From: a virus
Reading direction: 5' to 3' (one strand)
Length of the DNA stretch: 45,603 bases
IMG/VR virus record: IMGVR_UViG_3300025132_006985
Coordinates: 1-45,603 of that record
Part shown: positions 3,035 through 44,205 of the stretch, one piece after another
How the letters are laid out: every line of letters starts with the position of its first letter
How positions within the stretch are numbered: position 1 is the first letter of the stretch
Program-made: the position numbers and the translations under genes
Notes under the pieces: generated by a model
The model's database searches: none
What the model was told of the DNA's origin: nothing
What the model saw: only the letters and a program-made list of their open reading frames with translations

Positions 3035-3108
3035 GCGGGTATAGCATAGTGGTAATGCTCTAGCCTTCCAAGCTAGCTAGGCGGGTTCGATTCCCGCTAC
3101 CCGCTCCA
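3035..3108 (+). tRNA. tRNA-Gly (anticodon TCC), CCA encoded
   Basis: A full cloverleaf can be folded by hand. The acceptor arms are GCGGGTA (3035-3041) and TACCCGC (3098-3104). The D-arm is GCATAGTGGTAATGC. The anticodon stem is CTAGC/GCTAG around the loop CTTCCAA, giving anticodon TCC, which reads GGA. The T-arm is GCGGG-TTCGATT-CCCGC. CCA is encoded at 3106-3108. The 3' 23 nt, from the T-loop through CCA, are the prophage attachment core, so the phage restores the tRNA on integration. Confidence 0.96.
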
Positions 3109-4708
3109 TCGATAGCATACCTGCCGATCCGCGCGATTTTGGGGCTTTTCCGGTCGCCACCTCAAGCATCGCTGCCAGATGCCCGGTCAGCTCGATATCG
3201 ACGCCCTGCCGCGCATCCTTGGGCGTTATCACGATATTGTCGATCATGGCGCGCAGCGCGGGGCCTGCCTCGTCGCGTGCGGCCGGGTCGCTCAGCGCCT
3301 CTTCCAGATTGCGAACCATGCGGCGATATTCGTCCGCGAGCTGGGGATGCAGCGCCACGACGGGCAGCGTTTCCGAATCGCTCAGCGTCTGCCGGATCGC
3401 GTCGCGCTCGCGGGTCGCCTCAGTCATCGCGGCGCGCAGCTCGGTAAATTCGCCGCCGCCGGTCGCGATGGCTTCGACGAGCCGGGCGACGCGTCCCTCT
3501 GCCTCGGTCAGCTTTTTGCGCAATCCGGCATCGCGGCGCTGCGCATCCTTGGACCTGCGCGCATGTTCGGTGTGATATTCCTTGACGAAGGCCGACACCA
3601 AATCGGGGTCGAGCAGCTTGTCGGCGAGGCCGCCCAGCACGCGTCGCTCTAGATCGACGTTCAAGATCGTCCGTTCGTTCGAGCATGCGGCCGCGCCGCC
3701 TTCGCGATAGGCCGAGCAGCCCCAGCGTTCGGGCCGGACGATCGTATAAGCCGAGCCGCAGCGCCCGCACTTTGCGATGCCCGACAACAGGCGGCGCGGC
3801 CGCCGCGCCTGATTGAGCGTCAGGCCGGTGTAGTTCCCGCGAGCGGCGTCGCTCGCGGCCCATAGCTCGTCGCTGATGATGCGAAGATGCGGGACGGGAT
3901 GCACCGACCATTCGCTTTCGGGCTGCGGCTTGATCCGTACCCGGCGCGTGCGCGGGTCGATCATCTTGCGGGTGCGGCCGACGACCAGCTCGCCGCGATA
4001 TAGGCGGTTTCGCAGGATGCCGTCGCCGCGCTTGCCCGAGCCCGATATCGTATTGCTGCGCCAAAATTTCCCCGACACCGGGGCGACGCCGTCGGCGTTC
4101 AGGCCGCCGGCTATATCGCGAACCGACTTGCCCGCCGCATGTTCGGTGAAGATGCGCAGGACGATGGCGGCCGTTTCGGGGTCGATTTCGCGCAAGCCCC
4201 GGATCGGCTCGCCCTTCTCGTCATATTTGAGCAGCTTGCGATAGCCGTAGGCGATCCCGGCGGGCGCGAGGCCCTGCGCGGCGCGGCCCTTTTGCGCGCG
4301 GCGGATATTGTGGGCCAGCTCGACGCGCATATGCTCGTCGATCACGCCTTTGATACCGCCGGTCAGCAGCGTGATTTCGCCGTCCGCAAGGGTGAACAGG
4401 CGCGCGCCCGCGAAGTTTATTTCCTTGCGGATGAAGTCGCTGTCGCCGACGCCGCGCGCGATGCGGCTGGTCGTGTCGGTCAATACCTGATCGACGTCGC
4501 CCCGGCGGATGCGATCGAGCATCGCGGCCATCGCCGGGCGCTGATCCTCGCCAAACCCGGCGCCGCCGCCGATCGCATAGTCGGTAAAGACCTCGACGAC
4601 CGTCCACGCCTCGCGCTCGCAACGCTCGCGGCAGACGGTGACTTGGTCTTCGATCGACCGCTTATTCTGCAGTTCGCTTGAGAACCGGGCGTAGATCAGA
4701 GTGCGCAT
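3077..4708 (-). CDS. int: Large serine recombinase (phage integrase)
   Basis: The protein starts with a resolvase catalytic domain (MRTLIYARFSS, nucleophile in the FSS segment). A recombinase domain follows, then a zinc ribbon (CGRCGSAY..WGCSAYREGGAAACSNE) and a C-terminal coiled coil rich in Arg and Glu. I chose the ATG at 4708 (543 aa) because it places the catalytic strand at the N-terminus as in the family. An in-frame TTG at 4783 is the alternative; neither has a strong Shine-Dalgarno sequence. The last 32 bases lie antisense inside tRNA-Gly and cross attL, encoding the tail ERVAGIEPA. It is the last gene of a leftward operon. Confidence 0.93.
   Translation of the reverse strand: MRTLIYARFSSELQNKRSIEDQVTVCRERCEREAWTVVEVFTDYAIGGGAGFGEDQRPAMAAMLDRIRRGDVDQVLTDTTSRIARGVGDSDFIRKEINFAGARLFTLADGEITLLTGGIKGVIDEHMRVELAHNIRRAQKGRAAQGLAPAGIAYGYRKLLKYDEKGEPIRGLREIDPETAAIVLRIFTEHAAGKSVRDIAGGLNADGVAPVSGKFWRSNTISGSGKRGDGILRNRLYRGELVVGRTRKMIDPRTRRVRIKPQPESEWSVHPVPHLRIISDELWAASDAARGNYTGLTLNQARRPRRLLSGIAKCGRCGSAYTIVRPERWGCSAYREGGAAACSNERTILNVDLERRVLGGLADKLLDPDLVSAFVKEYHTEHARRSKDAQRRDAGLRKKLTEAEGRVARLVEAIATGGGEFTELRAAMTEATRERDAIRQTLSDSETLPVVALHPQLADEYRRMVRNLEEALSDPAARDEAGPALRAMIDNIVITPKDARQGVDIELTGHLAAMLEVATGKAPKSRGSAGMLSMERVAGIEPA
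3086..3108. other. attL core of the prophage
   Basis: This 23-bp sequence, running from the T-loop to the CCA of tRNA-Gly, is repeated exactly at 43462-43484. The flanks diverge immediately on both sides: G versus A before, T versus G after. The serine integrase gene crosses this core on the opposite strand, which marks this end as the integrase-proximal junction. Confidence 0.92.
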
Positions 4709-4814: not shown

Positions 4815-5053
4815 TTGAGCAGCCGGGCGATATGCCCAGCATAGACGCCGACGGCTTTCCAATAGAGGGCCATCGGAGCTTTGTGACGGCGCCAGCTTTC
4901 ATCAGCGCGCAACCGGGCGTCGGCTTGAATTTCCAGCAACAGGACTCGCAGAATAGCGCGAGAATCGTCAGAAAGACTATCGAGCTTGCGAGCTGCCGGA
5001 AGCGCCAGAACCGGATTGCGGACCTCGCGACGATTGCTGCGGGCGTCGGTCAT
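4811..5053 (-). CDS. Hypothetical protein, 80 aa
   Basis: The protein begins MTDARSNRREVRNP and ends VYAGHIARLLK. It looks helical and is rich in Arg, Leu and Ala, with no signal peptide or membrane segment. The ATG overlaps the stop of the cytosine methyltransferase gene as ATGA, and its own stop overlaps the next ATG the same way. Residues 31-50 (SRAILRVLLLEIQADARLRA) form an amphipathic helix. I do not recognise a family. Confidence 0.7.
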   Translation of the reverse strand: MTDARSNRREVRNPVLALPAARKLDSLSDDSRAILRVLLLEIQADARLRADESWRRHKAPMALYWKAVGVYAGHIARLLK

Positions 5054-6642
5054 GCGGCCATTGCCAGCTGGGTGCAATGTTCGGGCAGGTTCGCACGGGC
5101 GAGCGCTTCGGACATAACCGGGCAGACGCTGTTGCCGACCTTCGCGACCTGGTGCGTCTTCGGCAGGCGGCCAAACTTGCGCGCCTTTTTCTTTTCCGTG
5201 ACGTACCAGCATTCGGGATCGAGGATATAGTCGGGCGGGAAGCCCTGCGCGTTCGCCAGCTCGCGCGGCGTCAGCATCCGCATGCCGATATCGAAGATGA
5301 TGTAGGTCGCGGCGTCGATCGTCACCGTCACGACGGCAAAGCGGTCTTTCGTGGTGACGGTGCCGAGAGGCATGTCGAGGCCGTGCCCGCCCTCGTCGGT
5401 GCCGTAATATTTGATCAGGAACGCGGCGACCATGACGGCCCGATCCATCAGCTCGGGCGCCAGGGCGTCGGCCTCCACCATCGTCACCTCGACGGGCTGT
5501 TGCTGCGTCCCGCGGCCGGTGATGGTGCTGAGCGGTTCGGCCATCGACCGGGGCGCGCATCCGTTCCCGGCATTGTGCTGCGCCATGAAGGCGGCGACGA
5601 GGCCATGATGCAGCCCGCCGGCGCTGACGACGTCCAGCGGCGCCGTGACGGGCGCGTCGGAGCAATTGTTGCGCAGTTTGATCAGGCTTGCGGCGCTGAG
5701 CGCCATTTCGCCACGGTGGGCGCCGGTAACGGTCGGCAGCGGCTCGGGCAGCGGATAGACGCGATGCGGCGAACCATGATGCGTCAGCGGGATGATGCCC
5801 GGCGCGGCGGTCGTGACGCCGTTGTCGTTCGCGTGACCGACGATATAGGGGCGCTCGGCCTGCACGACCTGTCGCATGACGCCCGATGCAATGCGCTTGC
5901 AGGTCGCATCCTCGGGCAGTTTCTTGCGGTCGAAGATCGACGGGCATTTGATCGACCAGTCGATGCACTCGGCCGCGGTGCGCCACGGCAACAGCTTCCC
6001 GGTGCGGACCTCGACGCTGTCGGGCTGGCCGTGCGTCGGCTGCGGCCATATGATCGGGCGGCCGTCGCGGCGGGCGATCAGGAACAGGCGCTTGCGGCTG
6101 GTCGGTGCGCCAAAGTCGCACGCGCGAAGCTCGCGCCATTGGACACGATAACCGAGGCGGCGAATCTTACGGACCCAAGGCAGGAACAGCGAGCCCTTTT
6201 GATCCTTGATCGGGCGGCCGTCTTCGTCGAGCGGTCCCCAATCCTGAAATTCTTCGACATTTTCCAGCATGATGACCAGCGGCGCGCCTTCGCCGTCGGG
6301 TGTCTTGCGCTGCAGCCGTTCGATCCAGTGCGGCACGACGTCGGCCATCGCCCGAATGTTGCGATCGAGAGGCTTCCCGCCCTTTGCCTTGCTGTGATGT
6401 TTGCAATCGGGGCTGAACCAGGCGAGCAGCACGGGGGCGCCGCCGGTCGCGTCGAGCGGGTCGATCGAGAATATCGACTGGCAATAATGCTTCGTCTCGG
6501 GATGGTTCGCCGCATGGATCGCGATAGCCGCGTCGTCGTGATTGACGGCGACGTCGACCGAACGGCCGAAGGCGCGTTCAAGCCCGGTGCTGGCGCCGCC
6601 ACCGCCTGCGAAATTGTCAACGATCAGGGGCTGCGGCTTCAT
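5050..6642 (-). CDS. C5 cytosine DNA methyltransferase (phage orphan type)
   Basis: It transfers methyl from S-adenosylmethionine to carbon 5 of cytosine. The SAM-binding motif I is FAGGGGAST (residues 11-19). The catalytic motif IV reads PDC (Cys80) instead of the usual PC followed by Q or S. Motif VI ENV is at 127-129, and a motif VIII-like stretch (ACDFGAPTSRKRLF) follows. The region between about 200 and 420 is long and would hold target recognition. No cognate endonuclease is nearby, so it probably protects phage DNA or shapes regulation. It is ATGA-coupled on both sides in the leftward operon. Confidence 0.9.
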   Translation of the reverse strand: MKPQPLIVDNFAGGGGASTGLERAFGRSVDVAVNHDDAAIAIHAANHPETKHYCQSIFSIDPLDATGGAPVLLAWFSPDCKHHSKAKGGKPLDRNIRAMADVVPHWIERLQRKTPDGEGAPLVIMLENVEEFQDWGPLDEDGRPIKDQKGSLFLPWVRKIRRLGYRVQWRELRACDFGAPTSRKRLFLIARRDGRPIIWPQPTHGQPDSVEVRTGKLLPWRTAAECIDWSIKCPSIFDRKKLPEDATCKRIASGVMRQVVQAERPYIVGHANDNGVTTAAPGIIPLTHHGSPHRVYPLPEPLPTVTGAHRGEMALSAASLIKLRNNCSDAPVTAPLDVVSAGGLHHGLVAAFMAQHNAGNGCAPRSMAEPLSTITGRGTQQQPVEVTMVEADALAPELMDRAVMVAAFLIKYYGTDEGGHGLDMPLGTVTTKDRFAVVTVTIDAATYIIFDIGMRMLTPRELANAQGFPPDYILDPECWYVTEKKKARKFGRLPKTHQVAKVGNSVCPVMSEALARANLPEHCTQLAMAA

Positions 6643-8135: not shown

Positions 8136-8837
8136 TTACAGGTCGCGCACCAGCCGCAGGACACGGCCGAAGATGCGGACGTCCTCTTCATCGACTATAT
8201 CTTCGGGCACGGTCGGATTGTCGGAAAGCACGATGATCTTGCGGTCGGGGCCGATGCGCAAGCGCTTGATCGCACCGCCGCCGCGGATCGAGCAGGCCCA
8301 AATTTTATCCTGCAAATTCAGCCGCGTTTGCGTCGTGTCGAAAAACACCTCGTCGGATGACAGCAACGTGGGAAACATGCTGTCGCCGATACCCGAAGCG
8401 ATCTTGATCCGGTGCGCAGGCGTGCGGGTGAACGACCGGATGAATTCGATATCGAAGCGCCAGCCGGTTTCCTCGACATAATCCTCGATATGCGTCCCTT
8501 CGCCCATAGCGAGTGACATATCGAGCTTGCCGACCTCGACGGTTCGTTCGTCGCCGGCGTCGGCCGCCATCACTGCAACGCTTGATGGCGCGCCCCACGG
8601 GTCAACCTCTTCGCCTTCGATGGCGCGCTGCAACAGATTTATCGGCTGGCTTAGAACCTTGCTGATCGCCTGCAGCGTTTTCGTCTGAGGATTGGCGCTC
8701 TTCCCGCGCGTTATGTCGAACAGCACTTTGCCCTTCGTCCCCGCGAGCTTCTGAATTTCGCGGTCGTAAAAGTCACGGCTGCGGGGAGCGCTCTCGATCG
8801 CGAGCCGGATGAACCGTTGAAAGGCAGTCTCTTGCAT
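8136..8837 (-). CDS. Phage repressor with LexA-like S24 peptidase domain
   Basis: The protein probably keeps the prophage silent by binding TAGGA-N4-TCCTA operators. An N-terminal helix-turn-helix (about residues 30-62) precedes an S24 domain with GDSMFPTL (Ser153) and AIKRL (Lys191), the Ser-Lys pair that allows RecA-stimulated self-cleavage in this family. An Ala-Gly pair at about residues 94-95 is a candidate cleavage site. I chose the ATG at 8837 (GGGAAG about 9 nt upstream; 233 aa). An ATG at 8873 would add 12 residues. A degenerate third operator overlaps the start codon region (8839-8852). Confidence 0.9.
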   Translation of the reverse strand: MQETAFQRFIRLAIESAPRSRDFYDREIQKLAGTKGKVLFDITRGKSANPQTKTLQAISKVLSQPINLLQRAIEGEEVDPWGAPSSVAVMAADAGDERTVEVGKLDMSLAMGEGTHIEDYVEETGWRFDIEFIRSFTRTPAHRIKIASGIGDSMFPTLLSSDEVFFDTTQTRLNLQDKIWACSIRGGGAIKRLRIGPDRKIIVLSDNPTVPEDIVDEEDVRIFGRVLRLVRDL

Positions 8838-8874
8838 GTAGGACGCTTCCCACAAAGCGCAGCCTTCGGCCATG

Positions 8875-8928
8875 CTAGGATGCGTCCTACTTTTTCCGCT
8901 TGACCGTAGGAATAATCCTACGTTAGTG
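8875..8928 (+). promoter_or_regulatory. Rightward promoter with paired repressor operators
   Basis: Rightward -35 TTGACC (8900-8905) is followed by the perfect palindrome GTAGGA-ATAA-TCCTAC (8906-8921) and a weak -10 TTAGTG (8923-8928), a 17-bp spacer. A second operator TAGGA-TGCG-TCCTA (8876-8889) lies upstream, centred 31 bp away. This copies the layout of the leftward promoter. Transcription would start near 8935, almost at the ATG of the next gene, so that mRNA may be leaderless. The upstream operator also overlaps the repressor's own promoter region. Confidence 0.75.
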
Positions 8929-8935
8929 GACGCGC

Positions 8936-9190
8936 ATGGCATGTCATCATCCTCAGCTGCTCGCCGATATCATCGCCTTCATCGCGAAGGCTGATCGCAT
9001 GTCCGAAGTGACCTTCGGGCGAAAAGCGCTGCGCGACCCTCATTTCGTTCGCGACCTCAAGAACGGCCGTCAGATTTTCGCGACGACCGAGGGCAGAGTT
9101 CGCGAATTCATGCGTCGTTATGAGGCCGAGGCGGCCAGCCAGTCGACGGGAAATGCGGACAGAAATTCCCCCGTCGGGGTGGCCGCATGA
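8936..9190 (+). CDS. Cro-like small regulatory protein
   Basis: The 84-aa protein has two helices (LLADIIAFIAKADRMSEVTFGRKAL) followed by DPHFVRDLKNGRQ and a helix ending VREFMRRY. This pattern is common in small alphaproteobacterial phage regulators with a helix-turn-helix. Its place, divergent from the repressor and under the rightward operators, is that of cro. The start at 8936 keeps the full helical N-terminus; the ATG at 8999 has a better Shine-Dalgarno sequence (GAAGG) but loses it. ATGA overlap with the next gene. Confidence 0.75.
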   Translation: MACHHPQLLADIIAFIAKADRMSEVTFGRKALRDPHFVRDLKNGRQIFATTEGRVREFMRRYEAEAASQSTGNADRNSPVGVAA

Positions 9191-21901: not shown

Positions 21902-22465
21902 ATGGTGAATGTGCTGCTGACCCCGCTCGCGCGGGTGCCGGATCGCGTCATTGCAGGCGACAGCATTGTCGTGCGCGCTGACGGCCTGATGGCCGCTTAT
22001 GACAGCAACGAAGGCTATTCGGTGACGTGGCTGTTCCAGCCCGCCGCCGGCGGCCCTATTACGACGATCGCGGGCGTTGCCGATGCCGATGCGTGGAAGC
22101 TGGTCGTTCCGGCATCAGCGACGTCCGCGTGGGCGACCGGTCGGTGGCGGTGGTCGGTGCGGGTCGTCAACGACGATTTCGCGCAGGTCATCGACCAAGG
22201 GATGATGACGGTCGACCCGAACCCGGCGACCGCCGACCTCGACAGTCGTTCGCAGGCGCAGCGGATCCTCGACCTCGTCAATGCCGCGATCGAGGGTCGC
22301 GCCAGTTCGGCCGACCTTGAGTATGAATTCGAGGACGGCCGACGCGTGCGGATGATGACGCATGCCGAATTGATGGTGTTGCGCGACCGTTATGTGAAAA
22401 TCGTTGCGACCGAGGCGAACAAGGCGCGGCGCACCGGTCCCGGTCGCGTGCTGGCGAGCCTCTGA
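21902..22465 (+). CDS. Probable head-tail connector (gpW-like C-terminus)
   Basis: The 187-aa protein has two parts. The N-terminal about 100 residues look like a beta sandwich (VLLTPLARVPDRVIAGDSIVVRAD...WLFQPAAG). The C-terminal part, YEFEDGRRVRMMTHAELMVLRDRYVKIV, matches the strand-turn-strand-helix layout of gpW-type connectors. Its position between terminase and portal agrees. The N-terminal extension is unusual for gpW, which is about 70 aa. TGATG overlap with the portal gene. Confidence 0.75.
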   Translation: MVNVLLTPLARVPDRVIAGDSIVVRADGLMAAYDSNEGYSVTWLFQPAAGGPITTIAGVADADAWKLVVPASATSAWATGRWRWSVRVVNDDFAQVIDQGMMTVDPNPATADLDSRSQAQRILDLVNAAIEGRASSADLEYEFEDGRRVRMMTHAELMVLRDRYVKIVATEANKARRTGPGRVLASL

Positions 22466-24048
22466 TGCGCTTCCTTGGATTCGACATCAGCCGCCGCGGC
22501 GAGCCGTCGGCGCCGGAAGCGCAGGCGCCGGGCCTGCCCGTCGCGGCGCGGCGCCAGGCGCTGATGCGCGGTCGCGCAGTGTCGAAGCGCTCTTTCGAAG
22601 CCGGAACGACCGACCGCCTGTCGAAGACATGGTCGACCGCCGACCTGTCGGATAATATGGCGCTGCGGTCGAAGCTGCGCGCGATGCGGGGCCGCAGCCG
22701 CACTTGGTCGCGCGATACCGAATATGGCCGGAAATTTCTGGCTATGTGTCAGACGAACATCGTCGGTTCGGGGGGGTTCGCGCTCAAAGTCAATTGCCTG
22801 AACGACGCCGGAAAGCCGGACAAGGCCGACAGCGCCCGGATCAAGGCGGCATATGCGCGTCAGGCAAAGCGCGGTCAGTTCGACGTCACCGGCAAGCTGT
22901 CCGAACGGCTGTTCGACACGCTCGCGGTTCGCATGGTGGCGCGCGACGGCGAAGCGCTGATCCGGCTCGTCGAGGGACGGGATCGCGGCAATCACGGTTG
23001 CCAGCTGCAGCTCTTGCCGGGGCACCTGCTCGACGAAGAGCATAACCGCGACCTGCCGGGCGGCGCGCGCATCCGCATGGGCGTCGAGTTCGACGCGTTC
23101 ATGAAGCCCGTCGCCTATCACCTGCGCCAAGTGCCGCAGGCGGGCGACATGCACGGCGTCACGTCGCAACGCTATATCCGCGTCCCGGCGAGCGAAATCA
23201 TTCACCTGTTCCTCGCCGAGGATGCCGAGCAATGGCGCGGGGTACCATGGGCCTATGCCGCGCTGCGCGGCGCATGGCAGCTCGACAAGTTCGACGAGGC
23301 CGCACTGGTCGCGGCGAATGTCGGGGCGTCGAAAATGGGCTTTTTTCGCCAGATCGACCCCGAGGCTGGGCCGCCGATGGGCGCCGCCGAGGGTGATGGC
23401 GAAGAGGGCGTAGGTCCCGAGGGGCCAGAATTTATCACCTCAGCGGAACCGGGCGAATTTTCGGTCATCCCCGACGGATATCAATTCGAGAATTTCAACC
23501 CGGACTATCCGAACGGGGTTTACGAGCCCTTCTCTAAATCGGTCCAGCGTCGCATGTCGGCGGGATTGCTCGTCAGTTATCACGGCCTGACCGGCGACCT
23601 GCGCGAGGTCAATTTCAGTTCGATCCGGCAAGGAACGCTCGACGAGCGCGAAATCTGGATGCTGCTGCAGAGCTGGTACATCGAAACGGTCAAAGAGCCG
23701 GTTTTCACCTGGTGGCTGGGTCACGCGATGGTGCGCGACGCCGAGCTTTCGCGCCTGCCGCCGAGCAAATTCGATAAGTTCAACCGGCCCGAATTTACGG
23801 GTCGGCGGTGGGGCTGGGTCGATCCCAAGGCCGACGTTCAGGCGAACAGGGAATCGGTCGCGCTACGCACGAAGAGCCGGGCGCAGATCATCCGCGAGGG
23901 CGGCGGTGATCCCGACACGGTGTGGGCCGAGCTGGAAGAGGAAGAGGCGCGCGGCATGACCCCGCCGCAGGCGCCGGGCGCTGCCAAGGAAGCAAAGGAC
24001 GACGACGACGGCGACGACGAAGCCGCCGCCGAGGCCGAGGACAAATAG
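22465..24048 (+). CDS. Portal protein, lambda family
   Basis: The 527-aa protein forms the dodecameric ring at the capsid vertex for DNA passage. Typical lambda-portal features are LRAMRGRSRTWSRDTEYGRKFLAMCQTNIVG near the N-terminus. Later come DGEALIRLVEGR, the WRGVPWAYAALRGAWQLDKFDEAALVAA segment, and YEPFSKSVQRRMSAGLLVSYHGLTGDL. An Asp/Glu-rich tail closes the protein. Its length is normal for the family. The gene lies between the connector and capsid genes. Confidence 0.95.
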   Translation: MRFLGFDISRRGEPSAPEAQAPGLPVAARRQALMRGRAVSKRSFEAGTTDRLSKTWSTADLSDNMALRSKLRAMRGRSRTWSRDTEYGRKFLAMCQTNIVGSGGFALKVNCLNDAGKPDKADSARIKAAYARQAKRGQFDVTGKLSERLFDTLAVRMVARDGEALIRLVEGRDRGNHGCQLQLLPGHLLDEEHNRDLPGGARIRMGVEFDAFMKPVAYHLRQVPQAGDMHGVTSQRYIRVPASEIIHLFLAEDAEQWRGVPWAYAALRGAWQLDKFDEAALVAANVGASKMGFFRQIDPEAGPPMGAAEGDGEEGVGPEGPEFITSAEPGEFSVIPDGYQFENFNPDYPNGVYEPFSKSVQRRMSAGLLVSYHGLTGDLREVNFSSIRQGTLDEREIWMLLQSWYIETVKEPVFTWWLGHAMVRDAELSRLPPSKFDKFNRPEFTGRRWGWVDPKADVQANRESVALRTKSRAQIIREGGGDPDTVWAELEEEEARGMTPPQAPGAAKEAKDDDDGDDEAAAEAEDK

Positions 24049-42886: not shown

Positions 42887-43028
42887 CGGCGCGCAGGGCA
42901 TCCTCGGGCGTGTCTCGCACGCCCTGCAGATGGTCGCTCGTCGATCCATCGGGATAGACCCACCAGCCAGAGGCGCGGACAGGTCCCGAGCCGTGCCAGC
43001 ATAGGCGAAGTTCAGCGCGGGCGGTCAT
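42771..43028 (-). CDS. Hypothetical protein, second gene of the SOS-type pair
   Basis: ATG 43028 overlaps the upstream gene's stop as ATGA. The 85-aa protein contains SGWWVYPDGSTSDHLQGV and a helix (DALRAVREAAEALAQG), then a Pro-rich tail (YAPPQPNPARPTPR). Its 3' end is antisense to Rz1. No family recognised. It would be transcribed leftward with the next gene from the promoter near 43400. Confidence 0.65.
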   Translation of the reverse strand: MTARAELRLCWHGSGPVRASGWWVYPDGSTSDHLQGVRDTPEDALRAVREAAEALAQGKAPASHDGRPIDRYAPPQPNPARPTPR

Positions 43029-43378
43029 ACAGGACCGCCCGGCTTTTCGCGTTTCTGGCGCTGATGGCACGAAAATATCATGTCGGTGGAGCGATAGACC
43101 CCGACCGATTTATAGATTCCGTATAGTTCGCGGTCCGCGCCGCTCGATCGCACGATGTTGGTCGAAGTCGGCGTCGATTGATGATGATCGCCGATGTCGG
43201 TCACGATCCGCCAGAATTCGTCGAAGCTCGCGCGACGGCCGTCGCCATGCGCGAATAGATAGGCGAGCGTGAAGCGCAGCGCGAAGCTCGGCGGGATCGG
43301 CGCCTTCTGGGCCTGCCATCCGACCTCTTCCAGCGCGGTCAGCGCCTTGACGATCAGCATGTCGGTTCCGATTCGCAT
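43025..43378 (-). CDS. Hypothetical protein under a LexA box at the right prophage end
   Basis: The 117-aa protein begins MRIGTDMLIVKALTALEEVG and looks mainly helical (FALRFTLAYLFAHGDGRRASFDEFWRIVTDI in part). The second half contains TSTNIVRSSGADRELYGIYKSVGV. No membrane segment is present. A perfect GTTC-N7-GTTC SOS box is 18 bp upstream. Candidate roles are an antirepressor like Tum of phage 186 or a recombination directionality factor, but the sequence itself does not show either. An alternative start is ATG 43360. Confidence 0.7.
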   Translation of the reverse strand: MRIGTDMLIVKALTALEEVGWQAQKAPIPPSFALRFTLAYLFAHGDGRRASFDEFWRIVTDIGDHHQSTPTSTNIVRSSGADRELYGIYKSVGVYRSTDMIFSCHQRQKREKPGGPV

Positions 43379-43396
43379 CGCGCCTACATGCCATCT

Positions 43397-43411: not shown

Positions 43412-43461
43412 TAGTTATGCGGTTCCCACTAAACGCGCGCGCGGGCCAAGGTATGTTTCAA

Positions 43462-43484
43462 TTCGATTCCCGCTACCCGCTCCA
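43462..43484. other. attR core of the prophage
   Basis: This is an exact copy of the 23-bp tRNA-Gly 3' end found at 3086-3108. The rest of the tRNA is absent here, so this is the distal junction. Host sequence resumes at 43485, 11 bp before the stop of the FKBP gene. Confidence 0.92.
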
Positions 43485-43495
43485 GGTGTTTCCGA

Positions 43496-43987
43496 TCATC
43501 CCGCCGGTTCGATGCCCAGCAGTTCGACCGTGAACAGCAAGGTGGCGGCGCCCGGGATCGGGCCTTTGCCGTCGGCGCCATAAGCGAGCTGGTAGGGGAT
43601 CGCGAGTTCGACCTTGTCGCCGACGCCCATCAGCGCGACGCCTTCCTGCCAGCCCTTGATGACGCGATTGAGCGGAAAGCTGGTCGGTTCGCCGCGCTTG
43701 ATCGAGCTGTCGAATTCCTGACCATCGGCGAGGGTGCCGACATAATGGACGGTGACCATGTCGGTCGGGCCGGGCCGGGCGCCGTTGCCGTCGCCGGCGA
43801 TACGGCGCCAGCGCAGGCCGCTGGCCGTGACGTGCCAGCCATCGGCGCCATGGCGCTGGGCGAGCGCCGCCATCTGGCGGTTGAGCCACGCGGTTCCCTG
43901 CGTGGGTTCGGCGGCGATGGTGGCGGGGGACAATATGCCGAGGCCGAGCGTCGCCAGCAGCAGTCGGTGGGGTAGCGATACGCGCAT
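43496..43987 (-). CDS. FKBP-type peptidyl-prolyl cis-trans isomerase, exported
   Basis: The protein (163 aa) has a signal peptide (LLLATLGLGILSPATIAAEP). The FKBP domain shows DMVTVHYVGTLADGQEFDSS, then FPLNRVIKGWQEGV and KVELAIPYQLAYG, then a closing LLFTVELLGI. It would fold proline-containing proteins in the periplasm. ATG 43987 has AGGAG 5 nt upstream. It is a host gene, normally convergent with tRNA-Gly before the prophage inserted. Confidence 0.93.
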   Translation of the reverse strand: MRVSLPHRLLLATLGLGILSPATIAAEPTQGTAWLNRQMAALAQRHGADGWHVTASGLRWRRIAGDGNGARPGPTDMVTVHYVGTLADGQEFDSSIKRGEPTSFPLNRVIKGWQEGVALMGVGDKVELAIPYQLAYGADGKGPIPGAATLLFTVELLGIEPAG

Positions 43988-44205
43988 GGTCACTCCTGTT
44001 ATGATCGCTGTTCATAAGCGCACCCGTGCCCGGTTGTGCAATCCCTATCATGCGCCAACGTCGCTTTTGCGCGCGCCGCGGCGCTGCGGCGCCCTCCGCC
44101 GACCTGTCCGATTAATGCGACGAACGCCGCGGCGCGCCGGATCAATCCGCCGGTGCGGATCGTTGGTCGGGTTCAACGTCACAGTTTTCACGGATGGAGA
44201 ATGCA

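Follow-up and report, generated by a model that had tools for sequence, protein, structure and literature searches.

In the Myxococcus phage Mx8 (Tojo 1996; Magrini 1999), attP is located inside the integrase gene (int) and a change of the C-terminus has been established. Integration of Mx8 is reported to exchange 112 C-terminal residues for 13, with an effect on the enzyme that excision reverses (PMC6070905, PMC4701971). For streptococcal ICEs in rumA, one of these sources reports a serine integrase gene that contains the att site and a changed C-terminus (PMC4701971). In mycobacteriophage BPs, it is the repressor gene that carries attP, and integration removes an ssrA-like degradation tag; a proteolysis signal is also present at the C-terminus of the BPs integrase (PMC4557955). 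For elements inserted in tRNA genes, the Islander study of 2014 stated that no integrases of the serine family were known to use tRNA genes as targets, and it noted Mx8 and SSV as examples of integrases extending across attP (PMC4383910).

The locus analysed here is in the IMG/VR virus record IMGVR_UViG_3300025132_006985, and the whole stretch of 45,603 nucleotides is referred to as the window. It carries a prophage whose integrase gene, as a sequence-only reading had proposed, crosses its own attachment core, with one C-terminus in the integrated phage (prophage form) and another in the circular phage (free form). Compared across relatives, the attP-encoded tail of the free form looks like the native C-terminus, which would be removed by integration.

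The prophage and the two ends of its integrase

The prophage sits between two identical copies of a 23-bp core, TTCGATTCCCGCTACCCGCTCCA, and the bases flanking the two copies differ. The left copy forms the 3′ end of a host tRNA-Gly(TCC) gene (Table 1). In a search of 80 genomes from the nearest genus, 79 matched the left host flank, including one with 100% identity across 209 bases, and it was only from this search that the empty site emerged; when the right host flank was searched in a family sample, no tRNA was found nearby. The attB is empty in four genomes (L421, L422, L423 and L426), where the left flank up to position 3,108 abuts the right flank from 43,462, and the overlap of the two flanks is the 23-bp core, present once (24 in L426). 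These boundaries agree with the simple 23-bp join that the earlier reading had assumed. The two core copies being identical, the exchange point within the core has no effect on the attP junction. With the tRNA 3′ end restored, a displaced fragment and an empty site in relatives, the element has the features of a temperate phage integrated in a tRNA gene. The window also holds a temperate-phage gene set, with a CI-like repressor (8,136–8,942, minus strand), a DNA methyltransferase (5,050–6,642, minus strand) and a lambda-type portal (22,465–24,048, plus strand).

Table 1. Positions in the window of the integrase gene, the attachment sites and the adjoining host genes
Feature	Position	Strand	Basis or remark
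Large serine integrase gene, prophage form, 543 aa	3077..4708	-	Pfam domains, translation, AF2 model
attP-side coding tail LKHTLARARV and stop	43429..43461	-	Contiguous with the core only in the circular phage
attL core, 23 bp	3086..3108		Minus strand codes ERVAGIE, common to both enzyme forms; empty-site overlap
attR core, 23 bp	43462..43484		Repeat identity; empty-site overlap
Host tRNA-Gly(TCC), intact at attL	3035..3108	+	ARAGORN
Host FKBP-type isomerase gene, right of attR	43496..43993	-	Pfam FKBP_C; flank adjoins the tRNA at empty sites
attP P arm CATACCT, inverted relative to 43449-43455	3116..3122	+	Inverted-arm scan
attP P′ arm AGGTATG, overlapping the H-T-L codons of the free tail	43449..43455	+	Inverted-arm scan
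Predicted crossover dinucleotide at the centre of attP symmetry (CT, plus strand; AG, integrase strand)	3097..3098		Inference

For the window integrase, the Pfam domains Resolvase, Recombinase and Zn_ribbon_recom were all found above cut-off in a single protein, and S10, the catalytic serine, and R8 are invariant columns in the alignment with its relatives. The fold of one relative (L309) matches integrase complexes, and the window protein has the characters of a large serine integrase. The prophage-form ORF runs from an ATG at 4,708 to a stop at 3,079–3,077 inside the tRNA-Gly, giving 543 aa with the C-terminus MERVAGIEPA. An alternative TTG start, which would give 568 aa, is unlikely, as the first M of relatives coincides with the ATG at 4,708. 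Translation therefore bore out the claim that the minus-strand integrase reads through attL into the tRNA and ends in VAGIEPA, correct in both coordinates and lengths, and across 3,077–3,108 the prophage tail reads the antisense of the tRNA with which the core is shared.

When attP was joined in silico, the join point fell on a codon boundary of the integrase frame, and the same frame continued to a stop at 43,431–43,429, giving 551 aa with the C-terminus VAGIELKHTLARARV / MERVAGIELKHTLARARV. The free-form C-terminus can also be written as GIELKHTLARARV, with HTLARARV as its final residues. The ten residues LKHTLARARV that had been predicted on the attP side were thereby reproduced, and the sequence by itself yields a prophage form of 543 aa and a free form of 551 aa that differ in their tails. 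As judged from sequence, the locus is of the Mx8 and rumA-ICE type, in which the att core is inside int and the two C-termini are set by the integration state.

A directionality factor was looked for and none was identified; the right-end genes of the window had no PHROGs match, and those that were scanned had no Pfam match. Small minus-strand ORFs at the right end (43,025–43,394; ATG at 43,394 or 43,378) begin, in the circular phage, approximately 35–51 nt past the stop of the free-form int, an arrangement as if co-transcription with int were possible only in the free phage. The ORF from 43,378 had no PHROGs match.

Relatives and the conservation of the free tail

When the window integrase was used as a single query sequence, scans of genome and viral collections gave no matches, and relatives were gathered from these collections by alignment-based searches. 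The 265 non-redundant full-length relatives comprise 165 that read tRNA antisense in the GxEP frame, 14 that read it in a different frame, 30 that are free attP forms seen directly, and 56 without tRNA overlap. On these counts, read-through into the tRNA is commoner than chance. An ending of homologues before the core, which would have spoken against the earlier reading, is not general, as most tRNA-targeting relatives read through it. The targets are mostly tRNAs with a CAT anticodon and, among relatives close to the window integrase, tRNA-Gly. The tRNA-crossing relatives are mostly from alphaproteobacterial prophages, and one of the direct free forms comes from an isolated phage, Rhizobium phage RR1-A. 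The sequence of the prophage tail is set by the tRNA, and its frame varies (GIEPA versus GNRTRLTSLEG).

Some unusual arrangements were also seen. Tandem in-frame copies of the att core (VKMVAG…), at least two, were present at the element end in L387 (attR of L044), L380 (attR of L032), the tails of L023 and L048, and L384 (L087). Such a repeated core motif means that the tail holds attP-like repeats, perhaps from repeated integration and excision. On one contig, two related integrases (L238 and L245) are located in tandem elements, and the first of them continues into the following element's right end, resulting in a long free-type tail without excision. In four relatives of the tRNA-Met type (L006, L008, L009 and L066), the integrase codons before the core hold a GC-rich hairpin followed by T residues on the tRNA strand, and the element may therefore supply a terminator for the tRNA.

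Free-form tails were obtained for 63 elements, either read directly in free-phage contigs or from joins, which were mostly made in silico after the attR partners had been located by core-pattern searches. Conservation of the attP-side residues in related phages, proposed earlier as a check, was found in these tails. For example, the integrase of G303 (76% identical, with the same tRNA and site, in an element of approximately 18 kb) has the free tail ERVAGIEPDHTLAKTKV and the C-terminus GIEPDHTLAKTKV, ending in HTLAKTKV, compared to HTLARARV in the window. Two integrases of about 60% identity (L252 and G345) have the free tail ERVAGIGFQRTLIVGRA, L309, on a contig that reads the free form directly, has the C-terminus GLELQHTLRRIRV, and L335 has the free tail GLDRTLRRIRV. 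The tail KRTFLKAQV is shared by L012 and L014, with five synonymous and no nonsynonymous changes in the last nine codons. In L258, the core is read in another frame and the tail is one nucleotide shorter, and it ends in YFLKAAV, near the FLKAQV of L012 and L014.

In the 14 window-type tails, which have a median body identity of 45%, the stop is at a fixed distance from the core across different tRNA targets. Their last six residues scored a BLOSUM of 1.04 per column, compared to -0.30 when shuffled within tails (p = 0.0002, shared ancestry uncorrected). A sister group has long free tails (IDLGTWQIAL…), conserved for approximately 50 residues past the core with a pN/pS of 0.23. The tail is not rigidly fixed, as the comparison of L013 and L014 (attR loci L366 and L379) suggests; their bodies are 97% identical and their tails are RHKRKFLMATV and GRKRTFLKAQV, so the module can apparently change with the other genome end. 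Random read-through as the origin of the free tail was rejected based on the fixed stop distance and the frame-specific conservation.

Most free forms carry an inverted arm pair, approximately 14–25 nt on each side of a common centre located 9.5 nt from where the core GG motif begins. In the window, the arms are a 7-bp run at offsets 18–24 from the centre, and the crossover dinucleotide was placed as in Table 1 because most relatives share this centre. The attP-side conservation could then be a DNA constraint from the attP half-sites only, with the coding being incidental, which would fit the presence, in most elements, of inverted arms whose offset and centre are both constant, and the arm that encodes H-T-L; these three residues may be kept for DNA binding alone. 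However, the last five codons of the window-type tail are outside the arms and are conserved in the integrase frame only. Their mean BLOSUM was 0.84, compared to 0.13 after a column-wise nucleotide permutation that breaks codons and keeps the base composition of each column (p = 0.0002, shared ancestry uncorrected), and the same test on these codons showed no conservation in either alternative frame. Tail similarity beyond the attP arms is confined to the integrase frame. The fixed position of the stop, the R to K changes, which arose through multi-base codon changes, and the long conserved tails of the IDLGTWQ group are also against this explanation, which is largely refuted and in our view very improbable. 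Arm symmetry as the sole cause of conservation was rejected for the last five codons by the arm scan and the permutation test.

The patterns in these tails indicate that the free tail is selected as protein, the uncorrected common ancestry of the relatives being the chief statistical weakness of these tests. On this comparison, it is the free form on which selection acts, the prophage tail being a by-product of the tRNA sequence, and the swap of tails is probably not an accident.

Possible roles of the free tail

In the AF2 models of the L309 free form and the window prophage form, the enzyme body is confident and the tail is of very low confidence, with residues 527–543 of the window prophage form at low confidence. 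The tail is predicted to be disordered, and a short linear signal is a better candidate than a folded segment. An A or V was at the end of 61% of 61 free forms, compared to 22% of 1250 background ORFs (p = 3e-10), the background being a mechanical ORF list and not annotated genes. Hydrophobic-Ala ends were found in 30% of free forms, 9% of background ORFs and 0% of prophage forms. L075, which has an immediate stop, was excluded from this composition test; for L066, one of two uncertain candidate attR sites, each over 220 kb distant, was kept.

Nonpolar C-terminal ends are a known kind of proteolysis signal, which these free ends resemble, and the tag of the BPs repressor offers a comparison. 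Some free tails of the family end in KLAA, SVAA or LIAA and others are LFRAAA or IIIAC, and the Ala/Val enrichment across the family suggests a proteolysis signal. This is weakest for the window phage, because its RARV end is unlike the tmRNA tag of the host genus, ANDNEALALAA; an ssrA-like end was sought in the window tail and no clear match was found.

The tail could also be the ancestral C-terminus with a modest general role, such as solubility or folding, and its swap could be tolerated and regulate nothing, attP being inside int since the overlap saves space and keeps att and int linked. This can account for the conservation of the free form together with the indifference to the prophage frame, and it agrees with the relatives of at least 45% identity (n = 59), 29 of which overlap a tRNA and 30 of which do not. 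However, it leaves the Ala/Val bias of the ends unexplained, as well as the frequent read-through into tRNAs in a large clade, and we consider it possible but on the unlikely side.

Another possibility, and the main rival, is that the free tail takes a functional part in recombination itself, through DNA contact, synapsis or directionality, with Int-551 tuned for attP x attB and Int-543 tuned for, or tolerated in, excision with a directionality factor. The tail comes after the zinc-ribbon and coiled-coil region, basic residues are conserved in the window group (ARARV, AKTKV, RRIRV), and relatives that do not cross a tRNA are often basic-ended, with 67% having at least two K/R in the last six residues. 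For Mx8, the prophage form is described as less active (PMC4701971) or altered in specificity (PMC6070905). The predicted disorder of the tail is against such a function, and the divergent sister tails (LFRAAA, IIIAC, IDLGTWQ…) fit one shared mechanical role poorly; we consider this role, too, possible but on the unlikely side.

We favour an explanation in which the element is a temperate phage that uses a large serine integrase to enter the 3′ end of tRNA-Gly, with an int gene that spans attP, so that the right end of the phage would supply the true C-terminus (…HTLARARV, Int-551). Integration would carry that end approximately 40 kb away, and a short antisense-tRNA tail (…EPA, Int-543) would take its place. 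In the free phage, the tail would be of some use to the enzyme, and losing it would mark the lysogenic state. The likeliest specific role, offered as a lead, could be that of a short disordered C-terminal signal setting the stability of the free enzyme through proteolysis; Int-551 would then be transient after infection or excision, and the Int-543 made by the prophage would not. The reading as a whole, that int spans attP and that a conserved free tail, useful to the free enzyme and perhaps a stability signal, is lost on integration, seems to us fairly probable. A stability switch throughout the clade, in which the attP-encoded tail is a degradation signal of the free enzyme that is swapped for a neutral tRNA-derived tail, is doubtful. 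The hypothesis that the integration state could be coupled to enzyme behaviour, put forward in the earlier reading, gains evolutionary support from the relatives.

If the favoured explanation is true, no extra regulator would be needed to sense insertion, as recombination itself would rewrite the enzyme, and this could explain how integration is separated from excision. It would add a large clade of tRNA-targeting serine integrases. Users of these enzymes in genome engineering would also be affected, as annotated prophage integrases would carry a non-conserved C-terminus.

Comparison with known systems

Like the window phage, Mx8 has attP inside int and a C-terminus that is replaced on integration. 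However, Mx8 has a tyrosine integrase and a much larger replaced segment, whereas the window has a serine integrase with a 10-residue tail and conservation across many phages. The rumA ICEs use a protein-gene target in Firmicutes, whereas the window clade uses tRNA genes and is found mostly in alphaproteobacterial prophages; the conserved free tail of the window clade also differs from the rumA ICEs, for which the part of the source consulted reports no tail conservation (PMC4701971). In BPs, as in the window, attP is in a coding gene and the free form has a C-terminal extension that is lost on integration. In BPs, however, the switched gene is the repressor and degradation has been shown, whereas in the window it is the integrase, for which degradation is suggested.

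The large serine integrases of SPbeta (YokA), phiC31 and Bxb1 have the same fold and domain order as the window family. To our knowledge, the genes of these three do not extend through attP. The tRNA islands in Islander are similar to the window in their insertion at the tRNA 3′ end, the restored tRNA and the displaced fragment, but tRNA-targeting serine integrases were not known to that study, whereas here a whole serine clade targets tRNA genes. A limited literature search found no later paper describing such a clade. Therefore, the principle of a self-altering integrase has precedents, and what looks new is a clade of serine integrases that targets tRNA genes and has a switched tail under conservation.
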